This document shows, piece by piece, positions 3,037 through 18,231 of a stretch of 25,534 bases of DNA. The stretch spans positions 1-25,534 of the IMG/VR virus record IMGVR_UViG_3300036768_000240. The stretch is one strand, 5' to 3'. The position numbers were made by a program, and so were the translations under genes. A model generated the notes under the pieces. That model worked only from the letters and a program-made list of their open reading frames with translations, did not search any database and was not told the origin of the DNA. How positions within the stretch are numbered: the stretch's first letter is position 1; the number at the start of each line of letters is the position of its first letter. The DNA comes from a virus.

Positions 3037-3283
3037 AATACTTATGTACTACATAATCGACATCTAACTTGTCAGCAATATAACCGACAACATCGTTAAG
3101 ATATTCAACTGTTTCGACCATCTTCTTGAAAGTATCATTGATGGCGTCTTTTTTCTGCTCAAGCTCTTCTAGTTTTTTTATCCTCCTTTCGAGACGACCA
3201 ACTTCTTTCTTGAGTTCTTTAATCTGATCTCCAGCTATCTGCTCTATCATAGATTCCGGCACATCGACCCTAAGCTTAGCCAT
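3023..3283 (-). CDS. Small coiled-coil protein
   Basis: 86 residues from the ATG at 3283 (MAKLRVDVPE), which overlaps the upstream ligase stop by 8 nt (ATGGCTAA) and has AAGGG about 8 nt upstream; an in-frame extension to 3310 lacks such support. Residues 18-50 are a heptad-rich charged helix (IKELKKEVGRLERRIKKLEE), almost certainly a coiled coil. The C-terminus (NDVVGYIADKLDVDYVVHKY) is a second amphipathic segment. The function is unknown. It lies between an RNA ligase and a glycosyltransferase in a coupled operon, so it may be an oligomerising partner of one of them, but that is only positional inference. Confidence 0.75.
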   Translation of the reverse strand: MAKLRVDVPESMIEQIAGDQIKELKKEVGRLERRIKKLEELEQKKDAINDTFKKMVETVEYLNDVVGYIADKLDVDYVVHKYYDYD

Positions 3284-4202
3284 CTTCATCACCCTTGAAC
3301 TGTAAATCAAGGAGTTTCTGTTTGTACCACTCTGGCAAACCCCTGGTGGATTTCCGTTGGATCTCTGGCAGAATGAACTTCATGAACCTGCCTGCTATGT
3401 ATTCATACTCCTCTTCTGCGATGTCTTCCCATACCTCTTTGAGGATCTTCCCGATGTCACGAGGTGACCACTCTAGTTCTCCGCGCTCATCGAGATGCAT
3501 AACCGCTTTCTGCCACCTGGCAGGCGAACGCAACTCATCCACCAGATGATCGAGAACATCGCCTATGGTCGGATTACCCTTGCGCCACTCCTTCCTGTGA
3601 ACCTCCTTGAAAGATTCAGCCACGTGTTTGCCCATAAGAACCTTCCCGGTCCTCTCGTCGAACATGTCGTAGTTCTTTATGACGACACCCTCGACCTTAG
3701 ACTTGCCGAGCATGCTCTCCCTCTCCAAGAAGGAATCCAGGAAATCTTTAGTTACTTCCTCTCCTGGCATGGTGATGGCATCGACCATCTCCAGTCCGAG
3801 CCTTTCACACTCTGACTTAACTTCATCTGGGCGCAAGAAGTCATTCGGGGCCCGCTCGATGTCGAACACCACGAGGTTACCGACTGGCACCCTACCGTAT
3901 TCGATGGTGTTGTGCCGTTCACGGAAGATTGCCTCGCATCGGTAGATGTAACCAGGAGTAAGTAGCCCCTTCTTGTTGAGTTTCCGCATGGTTGCGATGG
4001 AACGAATGAATAGCTGATTGGTTTCCGTTTCGTATAGGGTTGTCCCCTTGGACCGCATGTAGAGATTGCCCTCTTCATCGACCACAGCAGAGAATTGACT
4101 ACCGTCAATCTTCTCACTCACATGGACGACCCCATCGAGGAGGTTCTTCAGTACCGGATGGCCGAGGTTGTGGACCTTTGGATAAGAGTGTATCTCCATC
4201 AT
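3276..4202 (-). CDS. RNA ligase, Rnl2-like nucleotidyltransferase
   Basis: 308 residues. SEKIDGSQF holds motif I (K-x-D-G, nucleophile Lys31), which would be adenylated by ATP. RSKG near residue 51 fits motif Ia, YRCEAIF and VVFDIE fit the region of motifs III/IIIa, VEGVVIKNYD is motif IV, and GKHVAESFKEVHRKEW near residue 198 fits motif V. A helical C-terminal domain of about 100 residues follows. The layout matches T4 Rnl2-type RNA ligases, which seal nicked RNA, for example in tRNA repair after host anticodon cleavage. A DNA ligase is less likely because no OB or BRCT domain is apparent. It starts at ATG 4202, a 4-nt ATGA overlap with the upstream glycosyltransferase. No polynucleotide kinase is seen nearby. 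Confidence 0.85.
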   Translation of the reverse strand: MMEIHSYPKVHNLGHPVLKNLLDGVVHVSEKIDGSQFSAVVDEEGNLYMRSKGTTLYETETNQLFIRSIATMRKLNKKGLLTPGYIYRCEAIFRERHNTIEYGRVPVGNLVVFDIERAPNDFLRPDEVKSECERLGLEMVDAITMPGEEVTKDFLDSFLERESMLGKSKVEGVVIKNYDMFDERTGKVLMGKHVAESFKEVHRKEWRKGNPTIGDVLDHLVDELRSPARWQKAVMHLDERGELEWSPRDIGKILKEVWEDIAEEEYEYIAGRFMKFILPEIQRKSTRGLPEWYKQKLLDLQFKGDEDG

Positions 4203-6911: not shown

Positions 6912-7003
6912 CAATTATCTCCTTTCTCGCTAACTTTCCTGGCGACCCAGTCATCTAACAGATTAACTGGGATTACCGTGCGGCGAATCGGGTCAGCCAT
7001 CAT
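6911..7003 (-). pseudogene. 3' remnant of a duplicate of the 13767-14189 gene
   Basis: A 30-codon frame directly after the phosphoesterase gene reads MMADP...[18 protein letters not shown]. It matches the C-terminal part of the intact 140-residue protein at 13767-14189 (AMMLADP and VNLLDSWVARKVREK). At DNA level 40 of 45 bases agree between 6923-6967 and 13860-13904. Its TGA overlaps the SPFH start as TGATG, so before interruption it was the last part of a gene coupled to SPFH. It is probably a leftover, though still translatable. Confidence 0.75.
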
Positions 7004-7896
7004 AGCGGAATCGGCGTGGCCGACGCCGCGTCACCGAGTCGCGGCAGACCGTAGGCGTCCTCGATTGCGGCGAGGATCGAGTAGTGCGTATACGGTGTCG
7101 CGTCGGTCGAACCGGCCGGAACGTTGGGCCCTACCTCGACCGCGTACAGCGTCCCCGACTCGTCATAGGTCACGATTACCTCGGCGCCAGCGGAGAGCAA
7201 GGGCGGCAGGTTGGCCGCGAGCCAGTCATCACCGCGCTTGTACAGCTCTGGGGTCTTCGGGTAGCAGTTCGCGAACTTCGGCGTGCCATCGGGCCATACC
7301 GCCTTTGTGCCGTGCTGGTCGTTGCAGATACCAGGGGCGATGAATGACACGGCAGGCAGGTTGGCGGGATCGATGCTCGAAAACGGCAGGACGTGCGCCC
7401 GGCACAGAGTCTGGTCGCCGAAGATGCTCGGGAAGGGAGTGGCCGGGTTGTGCTTCAAGGCGTACGGCGTGTCCAACGCGAAGTTTTGATAGTTGGCCTT
7501 CGCGTAACACGGCTGGGGCATCGCATCCTCGTAGACGGCCCAGCTGATGCCCGCGTCCTGGAGCTGGTTCCATAGCGTCGTCGGACAGGCGGCGCCGATG
7601 TCGGCCTCACCGGCTGAGACCTTATCGCTATCTTTGCCGCACCGCGAGCCCGCTGCAATCTCCAGGTAGTCGGGGAGCGATGGGCCGGTGGGGTCACCCT
7701 CCTTGTAGTTGGTGAAGTACCGGCCCTGAGAGACGAGGCTGTTCAGATAGGGCGTGTACGGATTGCCGAGGATCATGGAGGCATGCTTGTTCTCCATGAA
7801 CACAATCACGATCGGAGCGATGCTCGACAACACCGGCGGAGGAGGGGACGCAATCGCGAGTGGGATGAGAGACAGGACCAAGAGCAGTTTCCGCAT
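7000..7896 (-). CDS. Secreted phosphoesterase (AcpA/phospholipase-C-like, alkaline-phosphatase superfamily)
   Basis: 298 residues from ATG 7896, with GGAGG 6 nt upstream. The signal peptide is MRKLLLVLSLIPLAIASP. Phosphoesterase-family marks: IVIVFMENKHASMILGN (conserved M-E-N-K, metal/nucleophile region), TPYLNSLVSQGRYFTNY, LPDYLEIAAGS, EVIVTYDESG (metal-binding DE) and PYTHYSILAAIEDAYGLPRLG, the typical family end. Six or more Cys suggest extracytoplasmic disulfides. It should hydrolyse phosphate esters outside the cell. GC content is visibly above the flanking phage genes. An in-frame extension to 7920 (MSVYRRPA) derives from the interrupted recipient gene, and the TGA stop lies in recipient sequence. 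I read it as a transferred cargo (moron) gene. Confidence 0.88.
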   Translation of the reverse strand: MRKLLLVLSLIPLAIASPPPPVLSSIAPIVIVFMENKHASMILGNPYTPYLNSLVSQGRYFTNYKEGDPTGPSLPDYLEIAAGSRCGKDSDKVSAGEADIGAACPTTLWNQLQDAGISWAVYEDAMPQPCYAKANYQNFALDTPYALKHNPATPFPSIFGDQTLCRAHVLPFSSIDPANLPAVSFIAPGICNDQHGTKAVWPDGTPKFANCYPKTPELYKRGDDWLAANLPPLLSAGAEVIVTYDESGTLYAVEVGPNVPAGSTDATPYTHYSILAAIEDAYGLPRLGDAASATPIPL

Positions 7897-7932
7897 GGCT
7901 GGCCTCCTATATACCGACATCGATTAACCTCT
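7897..7932 (-). pseudogene. 5' remnant of the same interrupted duplicate gene (start region)
   Basis: Minus-strand sequence here gives a ribosome site (AGAGG), ATG at 7920 and codons for MSVYRRPA. It agrees at 29 of 36 positions with 14166-14201, the start of the intact gene (MSVYRGPA). Similarity stops at the ATG of the phosphoesterase. With the 6911-7003 fragment it brackets the inserted gene. Confidence 0.7.
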
Positions 7933-7939
7933 TAAAGAT

Positions 7940-8488
7940 TCACTCGACCTCGAACCTAGCCGAGTCAACCAACCTTGCAAGGACATGGGAGATGTCCCAA
8001 TTCACTCCTTGAGCGAAGATGTTGCGCTGCTCACGAGGAGGAGAGATGGGTACTTCGCCCTTCTTCCGCCACACATCGATAATCCTCACCCCCCTTCTGG
8101 CCGGAGGCACCGAAACCTTCACGAAATACGTATAACCATCATATTCACTAGCGAAGACGAGACGATAAGGAGAGATAGGGTTAGAAATACCCTCATTGGA
8201 GAACTCGTAAGGAATCCCCTCGGAAACCGTGTTGACGACGTGCCGATATTCCGGCACATCGTTCAGTCTTCCGATATTCTCCTTAACAAACTCCATCTCC
8301 TCATCTATGACATCGAGGTCATTCGGCAAGATGCCTCGTTCGATCATCTTCTTGATGACGAACGGCGGAATGAATACATAGCACTTGGCCATGTAATCCT
8401 GCAACTCATCGAGCATGTCGATTTCACGCTCGGTGAAATCCCGATAGAACTTCTTCTTGATGATGTGATGCTGCTTAACCATCACCAT
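7940..8488 (-). CDS. Hypothetical protein (182 aa)
   Basis: 182 residues from ATG 8488, with GAGAGGAG 7-8 nt upstream and a 14-nt overlap with the previous stop. The N-terminal half is helical and charged (YRDFTEREIDMLDELQDYMA, PPFVIKKMIERGILPNDLDV). The C-terminal half is strand-rich (YRLVFASEYDGYTYFVKVSV, RRGVRIIDVWRK). No catalytic motif, Cys cluster or membrane segment is seen, and the family is not recognised. It lies between another unknown and the inserted phosphoesterase. Confidence 0.7.
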   Translation of the reverse strand: MVMVKQHHIIKKKFYRDFTEREIDMLDELQDYMAKCYVFIPPFVIKKMIERGILPNDLDVIDEEMEFVKENIGRLNDVPEYRHVVNTVSEGIPYEFSNEGISNPISPYRLVFASEYDGYTYFVKVSVPPARRGVRIIDVWRKKGEVPISPPREQRNIFAQGVNWDISHVLARLVDSARFEVE

Positions 8489-8864
8489 TTAGCCACTCCT
8501 CTCCGAAAACTGCTGCCGATGCAATCCTAACTGCGTCGAACTTATCGACGAACATCGGCCTAAGGATTACAAGGTTGTAGTATTTCACCACGGGGATCTT
8601 CTCGATGACCGCCTCTTCCGGTTCGAAACCGAACCAGACCCCACCTTCTGCCCCCATCCAATCATACCGAACTTGTGGAAGTTCGGCTATGATTGCCTTA
8701 TCGAGACGACTTATCGGTGTCCATCGATCAGCCCTATATATGGACACCTCCAACCCGCCGGTCGGAGCCTCCCACAGGGCGAACGTGCCCATATGTTTGA
8801 CACCTATAGGGCCAAACTTCGTCCTTTCGGGTCCGCTTATGCCGAAGAAATCTGTTTTGCGCAC
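8475..8864 (-). CDS. Hypothetical protein (129 aa)
   Basis: 129 residues from GTG 8864, starting 3 nt after the Ku stop with GAGG about 9 nt upstream, so it is probably co-translated with Ku. It is rich in aromatic and strand-like segments (MGTFALWEAPTGGLEVSIY, GVWFGFEPEEAVIEKIPVV, YYNLVILRPMFVDKFDAVRI). No family is recognised. Its position straight after Ku makes a DNA-end function conceivable, but nothing in the sequence shows this. Confidence 0.7.
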   Translation of the reverse strand: MRKTDFFGISGPERTKFGPIGVKHMGTFALWEAPTGGLEVSIYRADRWTPISRLDKAIIAELPQVRYDWMGAEGGVWFGFEPEEAVIEKIPVVKYYNLVILRPMFVDKFDAVRIASAAVFGEEWLNGDG

Positions 8865-8867
8865 TTA

Positions 8868-9776
8868 TCACTTCCTCTTCTTAGAGCCGACCGTCTTGGG
8901 CTTGACCTTGGTGGCCGACACCTTCTTGGTCTTCGGAGTAAGCGAGTCAAGGAACCCCCTGATGTCAACGAGCGGGGCAGGCAATCCCTCTGCGGGGGCC
9001 TCGATGGGCCTCGCGGTGATGACCTTCTCCTTGGTGTCGAGCAACGCTGCCACCTTCTCGTACTGTTCCTGACCAGACGGAGCCTCCATGATGGGACGCT
9101 CCTTCGCCTTGAAGAACTTCGAGATTGCGGCAAACTCCCGCTTGTCGTATCCCTCGCCGGGGCCATACATAAGGGGGATGGGCTCCCTGATTTCCTCCTG
9201 ATAACGGATGGTGATGAGGTTTCCAGTTGGGAACAAGATCCCCATCCTGATGCCGCCCGAAACTGGCACGGAAACGTAGAGTCCCTGGTTGTTCTTGTCG
9301 AGCGCGTCGAATAGCAGCCGAAGCTGTCGTTCGACGGAGGGCAATGCCTCGCGCTTCTTGCTCCCGGTCTTGAAGCCCCTCACGAGGTAGTGGTCAACCG
9401 GCGAGATAACCCCTGAGTCGATTAGCCTCGGGATATCGTCGAGAGGGATGGGGTGGATGATCTCGATAGCGGCACTATCTCCGCCGAGAGCCTCCTTGAC
9501 CTCCTCCCGAGAAACGAGCACGAAAGCATCACCGTATTCCGCCATCTTCGTAACTTCTGTCTTCGGAACGGTGATATCGCAAACAGGGCAATAGTAGTTG
9601 TACCTTACCCTGGTTGAACAGTCGGTGTGGTAAAGATGGAACTCTACACCGCCAGCTCGGATGTCGGAAGACATCTTGTAGAGAAAGACGGGGATCGAGA
9701 TGTGACCGTCTTCAGCGTCGTAGTTCAACGTGCCCTTGAATAGGGCAGACCTGGGCTGAGCCCGCATCGCACACAT
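8868..9776 (-). CDS. ku: Ku-family DNA end-binding protein
   Basis: 302 residues from ATG 9776, with AAAGGAGG 5-7 nt upstream. The N-terminus follows bacterial Ku: SALFKGTLNYDAEDGHISIP then VFLYKMSSD, VEFHLYHTDCSTRVRYNYYC and PVCDITVPKTEV, then an acidic block with YGDAFVLVSREEVKEAL, IEIIHPIPLDDIP and YLVRGFKTGSKK. GGIRMGILFPTGNLITIRY and EEIREP correspond to the later core that forms the DNA-encircling ring. The C-terminal tail is Lys-rich (TKKVSATKVKPKTVGSKKRK), as in mycobacterial Ku. Bacterial Ku dimers bind double-strand ends and recruit LigD. Phage Ku proteins are known from mycobacteriophages Omega and Corndog. No LigD is visible here, so a host ligase would be required. Confidence 0.88.
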   Translation of the reverse strand: MCAMRAQPRSALFKGTLNYDAEDGHISIPVFLYKMSSDIRAGGVEFHLYHTDCSTRVRYNYYCPVCDITVPKTEVTKMAEYGDAFVLVSREEVKEALGGDSAAIEIIHPIPLDDIPRLIDSGVISPVDHYLVRGFKTGSKKREALPSVERQLRLLFDALDKNNQGLYVSVPVSGGIRMGILFPTGNLITIRYQEEIREPIPLMYGPGEGYDKREFAAISKFFKAKERPIMEAPSGQEQYEKVAALLDTKEKVITARPIEAPAEGLPAPLVDIRGFLDSLTPKTKKVSATKVKPKTVGSKKRK

Positions 9777-9820
9777 CGTTTCCTCCTTTCCCACGCGAAT
9801 CGCTTTACGGCATCACCATC

Positions 9821-9849
9821 ATGATAGACAAGGCGCAAATGTATGTCAT
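9821..9849 (-). promoter_or_regulatory. Candidate sigma70-type promoter for the Ku gene
   Basis: On the minus strand ATGACA (9849-9844) and TATCAT (9826-9821) are separated by 17 nt and match the consensus hexamers at 10 of 12 positions. They lie in the 76-nt gap between the zinc mini-protein stop and the Ku start. A start near 9814 would give a leader of about 38 nt carrying AAAGGAGG. Confidence 0.4.
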
Positions 9850-9852
9850 ATC

Positions 9853-10020
9853 TTATTTAGAGGACTTATCGATTCCACCAATGTCGTCATGAATGCACAG
9901 CTGACAAATCCCCGCATAAACGTAATTCGGCCCCCACGGTGCCGGACCGAACTTCCTGAAACAGGTGCCACAGATAAGACATTCAGTTATATGTTCAGTC
10001 CACTGAACAGCTTTGTTCAT
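9853..10020 (-). CDS. Zinc-knuckle mini-protein (55 aa)
   Basis: A 55-codon frame from ATG 10020, overlapping the methyltransferase stop by 4 nt (ATGA), to TAA at 9853-9855. Cys at residues 14, 17, 20, 39 and 42 (CLICGTC ... CQLC) suggest a treble-clef or zinc-ribbon site; His10 and His44 may add ligands. It is coupled to the methyltransferase and followed by Ku. A nucleic-acid-binding accessory role is likely but not shown. It fills the apparent gap between 10017 and Ku. Confidence 0.7.
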   Translation of the reverse strand: MNKAVQWTEHITECLICGTCFRKFGPAPWGPNYVYAGICQLCIHDDIGGIDKSSK

Positions 10021-10952
10021 TGCCCATTACCCCGTCCTCTGGTCTTACTGTACCGAGTGGCCGCCGACTTCCTGCGGGTGCCGAGTCGCTCTGCATCGAT
10101 AGCAATCTTGTCGAAACTCGCGACCAACTGCTGATGTCGTACCGCGAGAGACGCTTGGATGCGATCCCTCGCGTAGCAGACGTACTTTTCCACGATGTCG
10201 TAACCGACGTAATGCCGACCGAGATTCCGCGCTACCTTGAGCGTCTGTCCAGACCCGCAGAACGGGTCCAGGACTAAATCTCCTGGGTATGAATAGAGCT
10301 GGATCAGCCGCCAGGGGATTTCCTCAGGGAAGGGGCATGGGTGATCCAGATGACCAGGTGGCACGGGCGCTATGTGCCACACGTTGTGCGCGACTTCGTT
10401 CGTGAAAAGTCGTCCTGTTGGGACTACTGCTTCTTCCTTATCTATGCTAGTTCGCATCTCATATATCTGAGGTCCTGGCTTTCGGAAAACCAAGATGTAC
10501 TCGGTCATGATATTGGGGTAGAAGTACCCGGGATATGGTTTCTGGAGGAAGACGCCGGCGCGCTTAACGCCTCCAGTCACTTTATGCCAGATTATGTCTT
10601 GACGAAACTCCCAGCCCTTACGCCAAAGTATGGATGTGATATCGAAAGGAGCCGGGTAGTGCGTTCCCTCCAAGAGGACGGTTCCGACCACGACCGCATA
10701 GAAGCCACCTGGTTTTGTGACCCGAAGCACTTCATCAGAGATGCACGAGAACCACTCGAGATATTCTTCATATCGTTTGAAACCAGCGGAGTAACTACGC
10801 GTCCTGTAGTTGAGAGTCGGATCTGACGCATGTACGTCGTAATCGATCGCGTTCCAGTAGGGCGGAGAGGTGACCGTAAGGGCGACTACGCCGTCCGGGA
10901 TCTCCGCCATAGACTCGCTGGACTTACAGAATACATTGTCGATATAGAGCAC
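10017..10952 (-). CDS. DNA methyltransferase, N4-cytosine type (beta class)
   Basis: 311 residues from GTG 10952 (GGGAGG about 10 nt upstream, overlapping the previous gene by 29 nt). Motif IV comes first, TSPPYW at 28-33, typical of m4C and some m6A enzymes. DPFCGSG at 229-235 is the AdoMet-binding motif I and is followed by HYVGYDIVEKY. The IV-before-I order defines the beta class. Between them, EYLEWFSCISDEVLRVTKPG and DIIWHK are conserved in this fold. The tail after residue 280 is basic. No restriction partner is adjacent, so a solitary phage methyltransferase that masks host restriction sites is the simplest reading. Confidence 0.92.
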   Translation of the reverse strand: MLYIDNVFCKSSESMAEIPDGVVALTVTSPPYWNAIDYDVHASDPTLNYRTRSYSAGFKRYEEYLEWFSCISDEVLRVTKPGGFYAVVVGTVLLEGTHYPAPFDITSILWRKGWEFRQDIIWHKVTGGVKRAGVFLQKPYPGYFYPNIMTEYILVFRKPGPQIYEMRTSIDKEEAVVPTGRLFTNEVAHNVWHIAPVPPGHLDHPCPFPEEIPWRLIQLYSYPGDLVLDPFCGSGQTLKVARNLGRHYVGYDIVEKYVCYARDRIQASLAVRHQQLVASFDKIAIDAERLGTRRKSAATRYSKTRGRGNGQ

Positions 10953-13834: not shown

Positions 13835-14189
13835 GATAACTCCTATCAATCTCTGAAAACTTCTCTCTAACTTTCCTGGCAACCCAGCTATCTAACAGAT
13901 TAACAACCCTTTCTGTACGGAGGTTAGGTTTACCGCTCTCCTCTGCGTCTAGTGAATAGTCGTCAGGATCAGCCAGCATCATCGCAATCTCGCCGACCCA
14001 ATCCCCTGTGTTCGCTATCGTGAACGGTTCAACACCGGCTTTCCCATACCCGAGTAGGTTCAGGAGCCAAAGGAGGTTATCGCGCTCGTACCTATTCAAT
14101 ACGAGCACCCACCGCATCCCTTCATGTGCCCTAGAAGGGGGGAGCCCTTGACCTTCGTAGATGACTGCTGGTCCTCTATATACAGACAT
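13767..14189 (-). CDS. Hypothetical protein, intact copy of a duplicated gene (140 aa)
   Basis: 140 residues from ATG 14189, with AGAGG 7-8 nt upstream. Order: MSVYRGPAVIYEGQGLPP; a helical WVLVLNRYERDNLLWLLNLL (about 27-46); EPFTIANTGDWVGEIAMMLA; then VVNLLDSWVARKVREKF near 95-111 and a charged tail. No family is recognised. The same start and end sequences flank the phosphoesterase at 7000-7896, so a second copy once lay there. The tail beyond residue 111 overlaps the downstream HTH start by 68 nt and is absent from the other copy, suggesting that the frame was extended here. Confidence 0.7.
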   Translation of the reverse strand: MSVYRGPAVIYEGQGLPPSRAHEGMRWVLVLNRYERDNLLWLLNLLGYGKAGVEPFTIANTGDWVGEIAMMLADPDDYSLDAEESGKPNLRTERVVNLLDSWVARKVREKFSEIDRSYHDREEVQQPDRQESSKGDSRAT

Positions 14190-14192
14190 AGA

Positions 14193-14543
14193 TCAACCTC
14201 TGAAAAATTCGAACTCTGAAACCTTCTTGCGGCGACCACGCGGAGGAGCATCCCCCACATGATGCCCCCTGAAGTACAGACCAGGGGTATATTTGCCAGC
14301 GTTGTCTGGATGTACGTAGAACGATTCAACCTCTCTACCGGCAATCTTCGCTGCGTAGCCAATCTTACCCATCCAGGCAGATTTCTTCTCGGGTGCAACT
14401 TCTGGCACGCAATACCATGACCCACTATCGGCAGAATCGACGAGGATCTTCACTAGCCGCTCCACCTGAGCTGACCTACGCCGCCTGGTCTTCCGGTCCG
14501 GTAGATGCTCCGGATCGATAGGGATGATATCTTGCTCTGGCAC
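14193..14543 (-). CDS. Hypothetical protein (116 aa)
   Basis: About 116 residues. I prefer GTG 14543, 4 nt after AAAGGAGG; frames to ATG 14558 or TTG 14591 are alternatives. Basic N-terminal region (LPDRKTRRRRSAQVERLVK), then strands (GSWYCVPEVAPEKKSAWMG) and ESFYVHPDN...TPGLYFRG, and a basic C-terminus (PPRGRRKKVSEFEFFRG). No family is recognised. The last codons resemble the stretch in front of the interrupted copy at 7932. A terminator-like hairpin and a candidate extended -10 element lie upstream. Confidence 0.65.
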   Translation of the reverse strand: MPEQDIIPIDPEHLPDRKTRRRRSAQVERLVKILVDSADSGSWYCVPEVAPEKKSAWMGKIGYAAKIAGREVESFYVHPDNAGKYTPGLYFRGHHVGDAPPRGRRKKVSEFEFFRG

Positions 14544-15727: not shown

Positions 15728-15971
15728 CTCCATCTCCATAATCGAGTTCTACTTGTACCACCTGGCCGAACGAGAGCCACTTACCCCCCCAAACGCCGGT
15801 CGATTTCGTCGTTTCTCCATAACGGAAACATATATCCCTAACCTGACACTCCATACATAAGTCGTTTACCTGATTGAACACCTCCAATGATCTGAGGTAA
15901 TCATCGAAGAAGTGATTCAGCGGTATGTCAAGTTCAGCGCATAATGCTTTCTCCATCCACTTCGGTGCCAA
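15711..15971 (-). CDS. whiB: WhiB-family Fe-S transcription regulator
   Basis: 86 residues from TTG 15971, one nt after the terminase stop; ATG 15956 is an alternative. Four Cys at 11, 39, 42 and 48 (ALCAELD, LCMECQVRDIC) have the C...C-x2-C-x5-C spacing of WhiB proteins, which bind a [4Fe-4S] cluster. GVWGG at 59-63 is the family turn motif that contacts the primary sigma factor. The usual basic C-terminal DNA-binding tail is absent; the end is acidic (VELDYGDGDAEEK). Phage WhiB proteins such as WhiBTM4 of mycobacteriophage TM4 act as dominant-negative regulators of host WhiB genes. The family is essentially confined to actinobacteria and their phages, so it is strong host evidence. Confidence 0.9.
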   Translation of the reverse strand: MAPKWMEKALCAELDIPLNHFFDDYLRSLEVFNQVNDLCMECQVRDICFRYGETTKSTGVWGGKWLSFGQVVQVELDYGDGDAEEK

Positions 15972-15972
15972 T

Positions 15973-18231
15973 TCAGATTAACCCCATCCCGCCGAGATAC
16001 TCTTCTATGTCATCCGGCATCTCTTTCTCCTGGACGTGTTCCTCTCGCTTCTCCTTCTCCTCTTCGTCGCGTTTGACAGATTGCGTAGTACCGAGGATGT
16101 CGATATCGATGACCTCCTCGACCGGAGTATTCACAGTGCAGGTATATACAGCGCCAGCTAAGGAGTCGGCTCCGTCCTTGAACCCCTTCCTTGGGTGATC
16201 GACCTTGTTCCCCCTGATGAGCTGCAACTTCAGGAGTTCCTGATCGACGAGGATGGGATGGTAATACGCACGAAGACGCCCATCATAGATGGAGGTGGAA
16301 AGCGTATCGTAGTGGTCTTTCTTCACCACCATGAACTCCGTGTAGATGCCTTTGTTCATGAAGATGTTCTTCGTATCGACGCTCTGCCACCTGTCCATCG
16401 TCACCATCGCCACATTGAACCTGTCGTTCAGCATGAACACGAATCTGCGAACGTCATTGAAGTCTATCTCGCCGTTCGGAGGGGCTTCCCAATACTTGAT
16501 GAGGTCCATCCGTATCACAGGCATTATCTGCCCATCCGTTTCACTTTTCATGAATCCTTCACAGTGAACCATACACAGCGCAGACCTGTCGCGGTTAAGG
16601 CCGAGGTCGATATGGATGAACCTCGGTGCTGCGCTGTCATCTTTATCCCGGAACATAGGAGGCAGACGCCCTTCCTCGTCGAACGGCGACCGAACGCAAT
16701 ACTTATCCGTACAAGATTCATCGTGTTTATGGAAGCAGGCCATGACCCTATATGGATCGCGGAAATACGCTTCCGCCATCTTCGGTGGCCGGCAAAGGAT
16801 GCGTGCGTTCGCATTCACCGGGTCACGTATGAAGTCGGAGGTGAAATCTTCTGGTTTCTTGGTGGGATTGGATACGAAAGTGGGGCACTTTATAGCCCAT
16901 ACCCTCGGTTCTCGATACTCGAGGATCTCATCATCTTCCCACCATACCGTTATCGGGCCGAGATCCTTCGTCACCTTCCTCGTGATCTTCCTCTCTATCA
17001 CCCCATCGTACCGTTGCTGGATGAAGTCGTTCTCATACCTCGGGAACGAAAGCAGCGCAACCTTTCCGACCTGGGGGAAACGCGAGATGACCGACAGCCT
17101 CGCCATGTCGTAGATGGCCTTAGCAGAAAACTTCACGGATTCTTGGGTGTGGGAAGAGTCATCCTGAGTTTTGAATGCGGAGATCTCGTCCAACGTAACC
17201 GCAATCAGGTTATACCCCTCCCACCCCTCAGCCTCAGAGTGGCCAGAGAAACACCTGATGGGTCGCTCCATGAACTCGATCTTCTTGCTCATCGGGATGA
17301 ACCCCTTCTTCTGGAAATACGGGCTGGCGATGAGCAAGTTCTTCAATGGGTCGAAGAATACCCGTTGTGCCTGCTCGGAGTTCAGAGCGATGTTCAGGAG
17401 GTCGATGTACTCCCCATGACCGATACCGTAATAGTCAAGTGGGTCCCTTAAGCAATGCATCAGATAGATGATCCTGGCGAACGCTATACGAAGGGTATTG
17501 CCGGTCAATATATTGCCCTCTAAGGTGAAGTTATGTATCTCTGGAACGTCCGGGCAATATGTTTGTTCAACCCTATCCGTTTCCTCGACCGATACCACCT
17601 TCCAGTGAGCCTCTGGGCCAGGATGGATATCGCGATGCTCATAGTTAACCTGTAACCAACTACCCGGCACCAAGTCGCAAGTGTAAGTCTCTTCGAACTT
17701 CCTCTTGGCCCTATCTAAGGTCTTAGTCGCAAACCATCTGTGATATCTGGTCGTGTGGATCTCTTTCGTTTCGTCGCCCCGTTTCACAACCAACTTCCAT
17801 ATCGGAAGCACACTCGTCTCGAGGACCTTAGCTTCTTTCCATCCCTGCGAAGTCAGCAGCGTCTGAACGGTGTTCGCCACATCCCCGATCTTCCTTATCC
17901 CGTCTTTGGTGATTATTTCGGTTTCATACGCGAAGCACCAATCTTTCCCCCCACCTTTGCCGATCTGACATATAACCTCATTTACCGTGGACTCCCAGAT
18001 CTGTTGCGCTTCCTTCTTCCCATGCATCTTCTCTAGTGTGTGGGGGAGGAAGATCTGGGTCATCTTCGACGCGATCTGCTCCTGTACAGGAGACAGTGGT
18101 TTAAGCCCTAAAAAATACGGGTCCGTCACGAACCTATGCAGATCGACCGGCTCTTCCTCGAACTCCTCCTTCTGGAGCAAAGACCTGAAGTCTTCAAGCG
18201 TTATGTTCCCGCCGAATCTACGCATGGTCAT
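15973..18231 (-). CDS. terL: Terminase large subunit interrupted by a mini-intein
   Basis: 752 residues from ATG 18231 (4-nt ATGA overlap with the upstream gene). Walker A is QIGKGGGKDW (89-98), split by an intein (99-245) and resuming at TLRIA; without it the protein is 605 residues, normal for TerL. Walker B is NLIAVTLDE (about 341-349). The RNase-H-like nuclease domain shows IHIDLGLNRDRSALCMVH (D542, D548), VTMDRWQS (D613) and FKDGADSLAGAVY (D686/D689), suitable metal ligands. The C-terminus is acidic and charged. The enzyme packages DNA into proheads with ATP and cuts concatemers; since the intein splits the ATP-binding loop, it cannot work until spliced. Confidence 0.95.
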   Translation of the reverse strand: MTMRRFGGNITLEDFRSLLQKEEFEEEPVDLHRFVTDPYFLGLKPLSPVQEQIASKMTQIFLPHTLEKMHGKKEAQQIWESTVNEVICQIGKGGGKDWCFAYETEIITKDGIRKIGDVANTVQTLLTSQGWKEAKVLETSVLPIWKLVVKRGDETKEIHTTRYHRWFATKTLDRAKRKFEETYTCDLVPGSWLQVNYEHRDIHPGPEAHWKVVSVEETDRVEQTYCPDVPEIHNFTLEGNILTGNTLRIAFARIIYLMHCLRDPLDYYGIGHGEYIDLLNIALNSEQAQRVFFDPLKNLLIASPYFQKKGFIPMSKKIEFMERPIRCFSGHSEAEGWEGYNLIAVTLDEISAFKTQDDSSHTQESVKFSAKAIYDMARLSVISRFPQVGKVALLSFPRYENDFIQQRYDGVIERKITRKVTKDLGPITVWWEDDEILEYREPRVWAIKCPTFVSNPTKKPEDFTSDFIRDPVNANARILCRPPKMAEAYFRDPYRVMACFHKHDESCTDKYCVRSPFDEEGRLPPMFRDKDDSAAPRFIHIDLGLNRDRSALCMVHCEGFMKSETDGQIMPVIRMDLIKYWEAPPNGEIDFNDVRRFVFMLNDRFNVAMVTMDRWQSVDTKNIFMNKGIYTEFMVVKKDHYDTLSTSIYDGRLRAYYHPILVDQELLKLQLIRGNKVDHPRKGFKDGADSLAGAVYTCTVNTPVEEVIDIDILGTTQSVKRDEEEKEKREEHVQEKEMPDDIEEYLGGMGLI
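17497..17937 (-). other. Mini-intein (147 residues) in the TerL Walker A loop
   Basis: Residues 99-245 of TerL have intein splicing blocks. Block A is CFAYETEIITKDGIRKIGD (Cys1). Block B is HTTRYHRWFA, with the T-x2-H motif at 161-164. Block F is VPEIHNFTLEGN and block G is ILTGN, ending in Asn245; the first C-extein residue is Thr246. No LAGLIDADG or HNH endonuclease is present and the size is minimal. The penultimate residue is Gly rather than the usual His, which can slow Asn cyclisation. Removal joins GKGGGKDW to TLRIA and restores the P-loop. Confidence 0.88.

Follow-up and report, generated by a model that had tools for sequence, protein, structure and literature searches.

A divergent Ku homologue with an altered synapsis hairpin in a phage related to the Stanwilliamsviridae

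The Ku gene and its surroundings

The window analysed here—the whole 25,534-bp stretch of an IMG/VR virus record, IMGVR_UViG_3300036768_000240—carries on its minus strand a 302-aa open reading frame that runs from the ATG at 9776 to the stop codon at 8868–8870 (Table 1). The profile search for Ku proposed in an earlier note on this DNA returned Pfam PF02735 at 3.6e-15 (56.8 bits versus a curated cut-off of 25); the product also matched PHROG 4873, "Ku-like DNA end binding" (1.5e-7), and, in a sequence search, solved bacterial Ku chains (6.9e-5). Together with the structural match described below, these results bear out the full-length Ku homologue that had been reported, and we consider it almost certain that the frame encodes a Ku fold. 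A second virus, IMGVR_UViG_3300010938_000067 (a 44,256-bp contig, hereafter the twin), has a Ku gene of 95% amino-acid identity; the dN/dS between the two copies was ca. 0.105, the other 12 genes compared giving 0.026–0.19, which value indicates purifying selection. A further contig, G009 (84,709 bp), is 99.99–100% identical to the window over 11.7 kb, so that some 98 kb of the same phage was open to inspection.

The promoter of its own that had been ascribed to the Ku gene fared less well: a 10/12 match was located at 9849–9821, and both of its hexamers are unchanged in the twin, but the number of promoter-like sites in the region (2 found, 1.7 expected by chance) is at the level of chance, and the site may count as a weak candidate only. 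The spacing given for the downstream 129-aa gene, which begins 3 nt after the Ku stop, is correct. The dN/dS of that gene relative to the twin was 0.12; Pfam, PHROG, and further profile and sequence searches returned neither relatives beyond the twin nor a recognisable domain, and its product is a possible partner of Ku. The overlapping 182-aa gene likely belongs to the same transcription unit.

Farther along lies a 306-aa phosphoesterase-like ORF (PF04185; window 7000–7920, minus strand) in a GC-rich island (62%); the twin lacks this ORF. At the corresponding site the twin has a copy of an element seen at window 13861–14205, and G009 ends at the same repeat; the region resembles a cassette that is mobile or has been exchanged. 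The window itself opens, at the contig end (positions 1–230), with 5.5 copies of a 42-bp tandem repeat, also found at the contig end of the twin, which is likely a coding repeat that broke both assemblies.

Table 1. Features of the window discussed in the text
Feature	Position	Strand	Remarks
RNA-ligase-family nucleotidyltransferase, KIDG motif	3276..4202	(-)	PF09414, 53.8 bits; PHROG 548, 81.5 bits
182-aa gene	7940..8488	(-)	14-nt overlap with the 129-aa gene
129-aa gene	8475..8864	(-)	3 nt downstream of Ku; twin copy 97% identical
Ku gene	8868..9776	(-)	302 aa; PF02735, 56.8 bits; structural match Z 12.6; dN/dS 0.105 with twin
Basic extended C-terminus	8871..8936	(-)	10 K/R and 0 D/E in 22 residues
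Counterpart of the minimal C-terminal region, PLVDIRGFLDSLT	8937..8975	(-)	D kept; invariant Ser is Leu
DNA-encircling bridge	9546..9641	(-)	Zinc-ribbon-like ligands H50, C53, C63, C66; pore DNA contacts R58, Y59, K77
Beta-hairpin 1 turn, residues 20–31	9684..9719	(-)	Insertion DAED plus GHISIP replacing GLV[NST][IV]P; Ku–Ku synapsis/filament surface of bacterial Ku
Ribosome-binding site, AAAGGAGG	9782..9789	(-)	5 nt upstream of the ATG at 9776; read from sequence, same in twin
55-aa ORF, two CxxC pairs	9853..10020	(-)	Just upstream of Ku; kept in twin
WhiB-family match	15783..15959	(-)	Actinobacterial host marker
Terminase large subunit	15973..18231	(-)	In-frame intein-like insert; places the phage near Stanwilliamsviridae

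Ring, synapsis hairpin and C-terminus of the predicted protein

A monomer modelled with AlphaFold2 (mean pLDDT 73) aligned over residues 9–196 with B. subtilis Ku (Z 12.6; 3.8 Å over 163 residues) and with M. tuberculosis (Mtb) Ku (Z 12.5; 3.6 Å over 164 residues), these values and the structural statements below referring to the VIA re-alignment, since the Foldseek TM-scores were low with an rmsd near 20 Å. The barrel and the DNA-encircling bridge are both present in this predicted structure, and the four zinc-type ligands of the bridge are retained; loss of the bridge residues, named earlier as what would speak against Ku, was not what we found. Among the pore DNA contacts named in two DNA-bound Ku structures (PMC12784961, PMC12784962), most are retained—Mtb Y21, R43, Y44, and R62 correspond to Y33, R58, Y59, and K77, and B. 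subtilis R188 to R197—whereas Mtb Q33, R46, R58, and R88 are changed to L48, Y61, T73, and A102. Most likely the protein would form, like other Ku, a homodimeric ring threading onto double-stranded DNA ends.

The phage Ku shares with B. subtilis YkoV and Mtb Ku the barrel and bridge fold (ca. 163 residues), most pore contacts, and the bridge ligands, but differs from both in a remodelled beta-hairpin 1, in the loss of the arm arginine (B. subtilis R161 is S173 here), in a degenerate minimal C-terminus, and in extra loops (residues 119–146). The divergence is general: the protein keeps 13 of the 26 columns that are otherwise 90% conserved, whereas other long-branch Ku proteins keep 15–21 of 22–24, and in a protein divergent everywhere single residue changes may be compensated.

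In bacterial Ku the GLVN turn of beta-hairpin 1 is the Ku–Ku contact that bridges DNA ends; with the substitutions L30G in B. subtilis and L13A/V14A in Mtb, DNA is still bound but filaments no longer form, and a ku deletion is not complemented by the M. smegmatis counterpart of the latter (PMC12784961, PMC12658125). The conserved motif GLV[NST][IV]P is absent from the phage Ku, whose turn reads YDAEDGHISIP, with four extra, partly acidic residues (NTED in the twin) ahead of GHISIP and with His in the place of the critical L30 of B. subtilis. In alignments of 52 and of 36 rows the twin alone shares the insertion, and neither this insertion nor the Leu-to-His change was seen in any other sequence examined. 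Most of the compared sequences had been fetched by a pattern search using the hairpin motif itself, and the comparison was repeated with a set independent of that motif, namely 30 actinobacterial Ku proteins retrieved by Pfam profile, which, as the best 30 of the matches, lean toward canonical Ku: all 30 have Leu30, Arg161, and Ser258, and none has the insertion. The position of B. subtilis K36 (Phe here) was dropped as a lost invariant upon this repetition, being conserved in 50/50 of the motif-fetched sequences but Lys or Arg in only 13/30 of the independent ones. Synapsis is possibly governed by loop topology rather than by side chains (PMC12784962); the insertion, as read from the sequence, is an alteration of that topology too.

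The lysine-rich tail noted earlier is present (Table 1). Just before it, the minimal C-terminal consensus V-x-D-L-M-x-A-L-K-x-S is represented by LVDIRGFLDSL, in which the D is kept, Leu is replaced by Ile, and Ser by Leu; the profile score of the C-terminal region at the homologous position (0.014 and 0.10 versus shuffles) is not distinguishable from chance. At the expected place the LigD-binding motif has a weak equivalent (D271, I272, and L276), whereas the LigD-affinity serine of Mtb, S258, present in all 30 profile-fetched sequences, is Leu here. The S258A change in Mtb causes only a modest drop in LigD affinity, and the Mtb Ku core suffices for LigD binding (PMC9638933); the phage Ku, therefore, may or may not recruit LigD. 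Taken together, the altered hairpin, the lost arm arginine, and the changed C-terminal motif suggest that the usual end-bridging filament is not formed.

Kinship, ligases, host and phage lineage

In a tree of 50 sequences the window Ku and its twin occupy a branch of their own (100/100), apart from bacterial and mycobacteriophage Ku, the length of that branch—3.9 changes per column—rendering its deep placement uncertain. On the NCBIfam equivalog model of bacterial Ku, TIGR02772, the phage Ku scored 56.9 bits, below the cut-off of 150, which threshold the controls passed (Firecracker 167.7, Wanda 261.6, and Streptomyces 288.7 bits). A tblastn search of GenBank phages down to E 10 disclosed no closer Ku relative, 81 of the 82 records with phage Ku matches being mycobacteriophages; IMG/VR yielded the 44-kb twin and, beyond it, only distant Ku at 20–34% identity, and a Streptomyces plasmid Ku is ca. 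25% identical. The kinship with Omega and Corndog is contradicted by the tree position and the TIGR02772 score, and the analogy drawn earlier with those phages, for which a phylogeny had been proposed, is accordingly weak. The Ku proteins of Corndog and Firecracker (cluster O) and of Omega and Wanda (cluster J) are, like the present one, phage-encoded and single-domain, with a basic or extended C-terminus and an actinobacterial host, and the two records tested, Firecracker and Wanda, likewise gave no match to a phage DNA-ligase family; the identity, however, is only ca. 20–27% and the clade is another. Matches about as weak as that of the phage Ku were observed in two Actinomycetota genomes (G164, 5e-12; G289, 3e-16), and these may be divergent or prophage Ku.

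The observation that only Ku and no LigD is encoded holds in the window, the 44-kb twin, and the 84.7-kb contig: neither there nor in a 19.6-kb contig, all of these being incomplete, did we find a LigD ligase or Prim-Pol domain (PF01068, PF21686), so that none lies within the ca. 98 kb of the window phage. The sole nucleic-acid ligase found is the product of the gene at 3276–4202, missed by the earlier note and present in both window phage and twin. Its closest families are RNA ligases, it lacks LigD domains, it lies 5 kb from Ku, and its fold is predicted with low confidence only (pLDDT 38). Because the relative BillNye, with no detectable Ku, also has two annotated RNA ligases, by analogy the gene would more likely serve RNA repair than DNA end joining. 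In other viral contigs a Ku gene does occur near a gene with a DNA-ligase domain (PF01068), as in L012 (2060–2875 and 2872–3636), whose Ku is Bacillota-like, and in L013 (ca. 9962–10768), apparent phage-borne modules of Ku plus ligase.

WhiB is a marker of actinobacteria. The window phage has two WhiB-family matches, which make an actinobacterial host very probable, a control search having exceeded the cut-off in one control genome only. Ku was present in at least 152 of the 296 Actinomycetota genomes sampled, and LigD polymerase in all ten of the Ku-bearing ones tested; host end joining is thus a realistic partner.

The terminase is ca. 41% identical to that of Streptomyces phage StarPlatinum and the Pol III alpha ca. 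38% to that of Daubenski, and the core gene order—DnaB helicase, primase, Pol III, RecA, Cas4-like exonuclease, RuvC, terminase—is the order of the Stanwilliamsviridae. These comparisons place the phage, on sequence grounds, in a lineage related to that family (ca. 40% identity) and outside any described genus. StarPlatinum, Daubenski, and BillNye share the homologous terminase, the Pol III alpha, and the gene order, but their three records gave no Pfam Ku match; neither Pfam nor two local profiles detected in MG757153 the Ku domain that is listed for BillNye (PMC11936186, Table 2).

Direct terminal repeats, 100% identical, measure 2,262 bp in BillNye and 12,199 bp in StarPlatinum, and those of BE1 phages ca. 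11 kb (PMC5764925), whereas the genomes of Omega- and Corndog-type phages end in 4-base 3' overhangs (PMC3706429, PMC4351075). The repeats were seen in relatives of ca. 40% terminase identity only, the window phage's own ends not being located in the contigs. Since the window phage has RecA, together with weak Cas4-like and RuvC matches, circularisation by recombination would be available to a genome with such repeats, and the earlier idea of a circularisation of short cohesive ends finds no echo in the known relatives.

Several other features of this lineage are recorded here in their own right. The insert of the terminase (ca. 147 aa) lies just past the P-loop, between GGGKDW and T, beginning CFAYETEI and ending NFTLEGNILTGN (cf. 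L026 13401–15212); the terminase of a 94%-identical relative (G010) is without it, with a gap of 441 bp and 603 versus 752 aa. An intein-like segment of ca. 300 aa, bearing the LAGLIDADG-type motif LAGLIDTDG, interrupts the ribonucleotide reductase large subunit of the same phage (L022 2079–4841, plus strand). The coding region of DNA polymerase III alpha is divided between two overlapping ORFs in different frames (L024 10152–11441 and 11386–13752, plus strand), and the same split occurs in L004 and L026—hence in three independent contigs; it may be a programmed frameshift, a split gene, or some other arrangement. The twin also carries a gene of the IMP dehydrogenase/GMP reductase family (L004 15131–16321, plus strand), with a possible role in purine metabolism or DNA modification.

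Possible roles of the phage Ku

Our leading reading, held tentatively, is that the phage Ku is a genuine, very divergent Ku that binds and protects DNA ends and would leave their sealing to host enzymes. We prefer protecting to joining because the synapsis surface is changed while the pore and bridge are mostly kept. With the fold and pore residues described above, and as the DNA-binding dimer that we infer, the ring would load on DNA ends and would chiefly cap and protect those of the phage, both at entry and at breaks; the phage RecA system or host enzymes would act thereafter, with sealing left to LigD or another ligase of the host, and the closing of short cohesive genome ends is probably not the purpose of the protein. 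The fallback idea of the earlier note, that Ku shields ends from nucleases, fits the residue pattern better than does a joining of short ends of the Omega and Corndog type. The job proposed for the Gam protein of phage Mu, that of a dimeric Ku-type protein which keeps nucleases away from the ends of linear phage DNA (PMC1378119), is similar, but the phage Ku falls into the canonical Ku barrel family: a Pfam scan at E ≤ 0.001 gave Ku alone, with no match to the Gam family. More loosely still we hold the idea of a separation-of-function Ku that would have kept the ring, given up both the synapsis surface and canonical LigD recruitment, and become a dedicated Gam-like end cap. Against the leading reading may count the divergence of the protein throughout, its retained basic tail, the LigD binding of the Mtb core, and the fact that the terminal repeats were seen in relatives only.

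The main rival, which we judge rather doubtful, is that the phage Ku would recruit host LigD so that the ends of phage DNA are joined, whether to circularise the genome or to repair breaks, as in Omega and Corndog. For a phage Ku working with host LigD there is a precedent in Pitcher et al. (2006), as that study is cited in PMC4351075 and PMC3706429, and the actinobacterial host with its common Ku and LigD polymerase, the basic tail, and the weak LigD-motif counterpart agree with such a use; the position outside the mycobacteriophage Ku clade, the changes in the synapsis hairpin and at the Ser258 position, and relatives with long terminal repeats in place of 4-base overhangs do not. Of what had been proposed in this respect, the use of host LigD stands as possible, but a short-cohesive-end circularisation is unsupported. 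If, alternatively, the protein occupied ends or paired with host Ku or LigD, it might block a host end joining that could scramble or degrade phage DNA: an end-binding, non-bridging Ku would be dominant negative, which expectation follows from the same residue changes, but hetero-pairing with host Ku is doubtful at ca. 20–25% identity, and we regard such interference as improbable. Distinctly improbable, too, is a two-part joining system of the phage's own, composed of Ku and either the 129-aa protein or the RNA-ligase-family protein; the spacing and dN/dS of the 129-aa gene and the occurrence of the ligase gene in both phages would suit that system, but no domain is recognisable in the 129-aa protein, the ligase is distant from Ku and of RNA-ligase type, and BillNye keeps its RNA ligases without a detectable Ku. 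That the gene is a degenerating Ku without function is, finally, very improbable, for although the branch is very long and only half of the columns conserved elsewhere are kept, the ORF is full-length, has a good ribosome-binding site, and evolves with a dN/dS like that of its neighbours.

Phage Ku is usually explained by the LigD-dependent closing of short-ended genomes, and the cases matched here among GenBank phages are almost all from mycobacteriophages. The present Ku is of a different lineage, and the known members of its phage group, with their long terminal repeats, should not require such closing; what is new, as far as the sequences indicate, is a phage Ku that is both divergent and remodelled at its end-bridging surface, from a phage lineage where short-end circularisation is unlikely. 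The end-protecting reading bears on the purpose of phage Ku and on the ways in which loading of the ring, bridging of ends, and recruitment of a ligase can become uncoupled; if the separation-of-function idea is true, a phage would have made a factor for joining ends into one whose sole task is to cap them.
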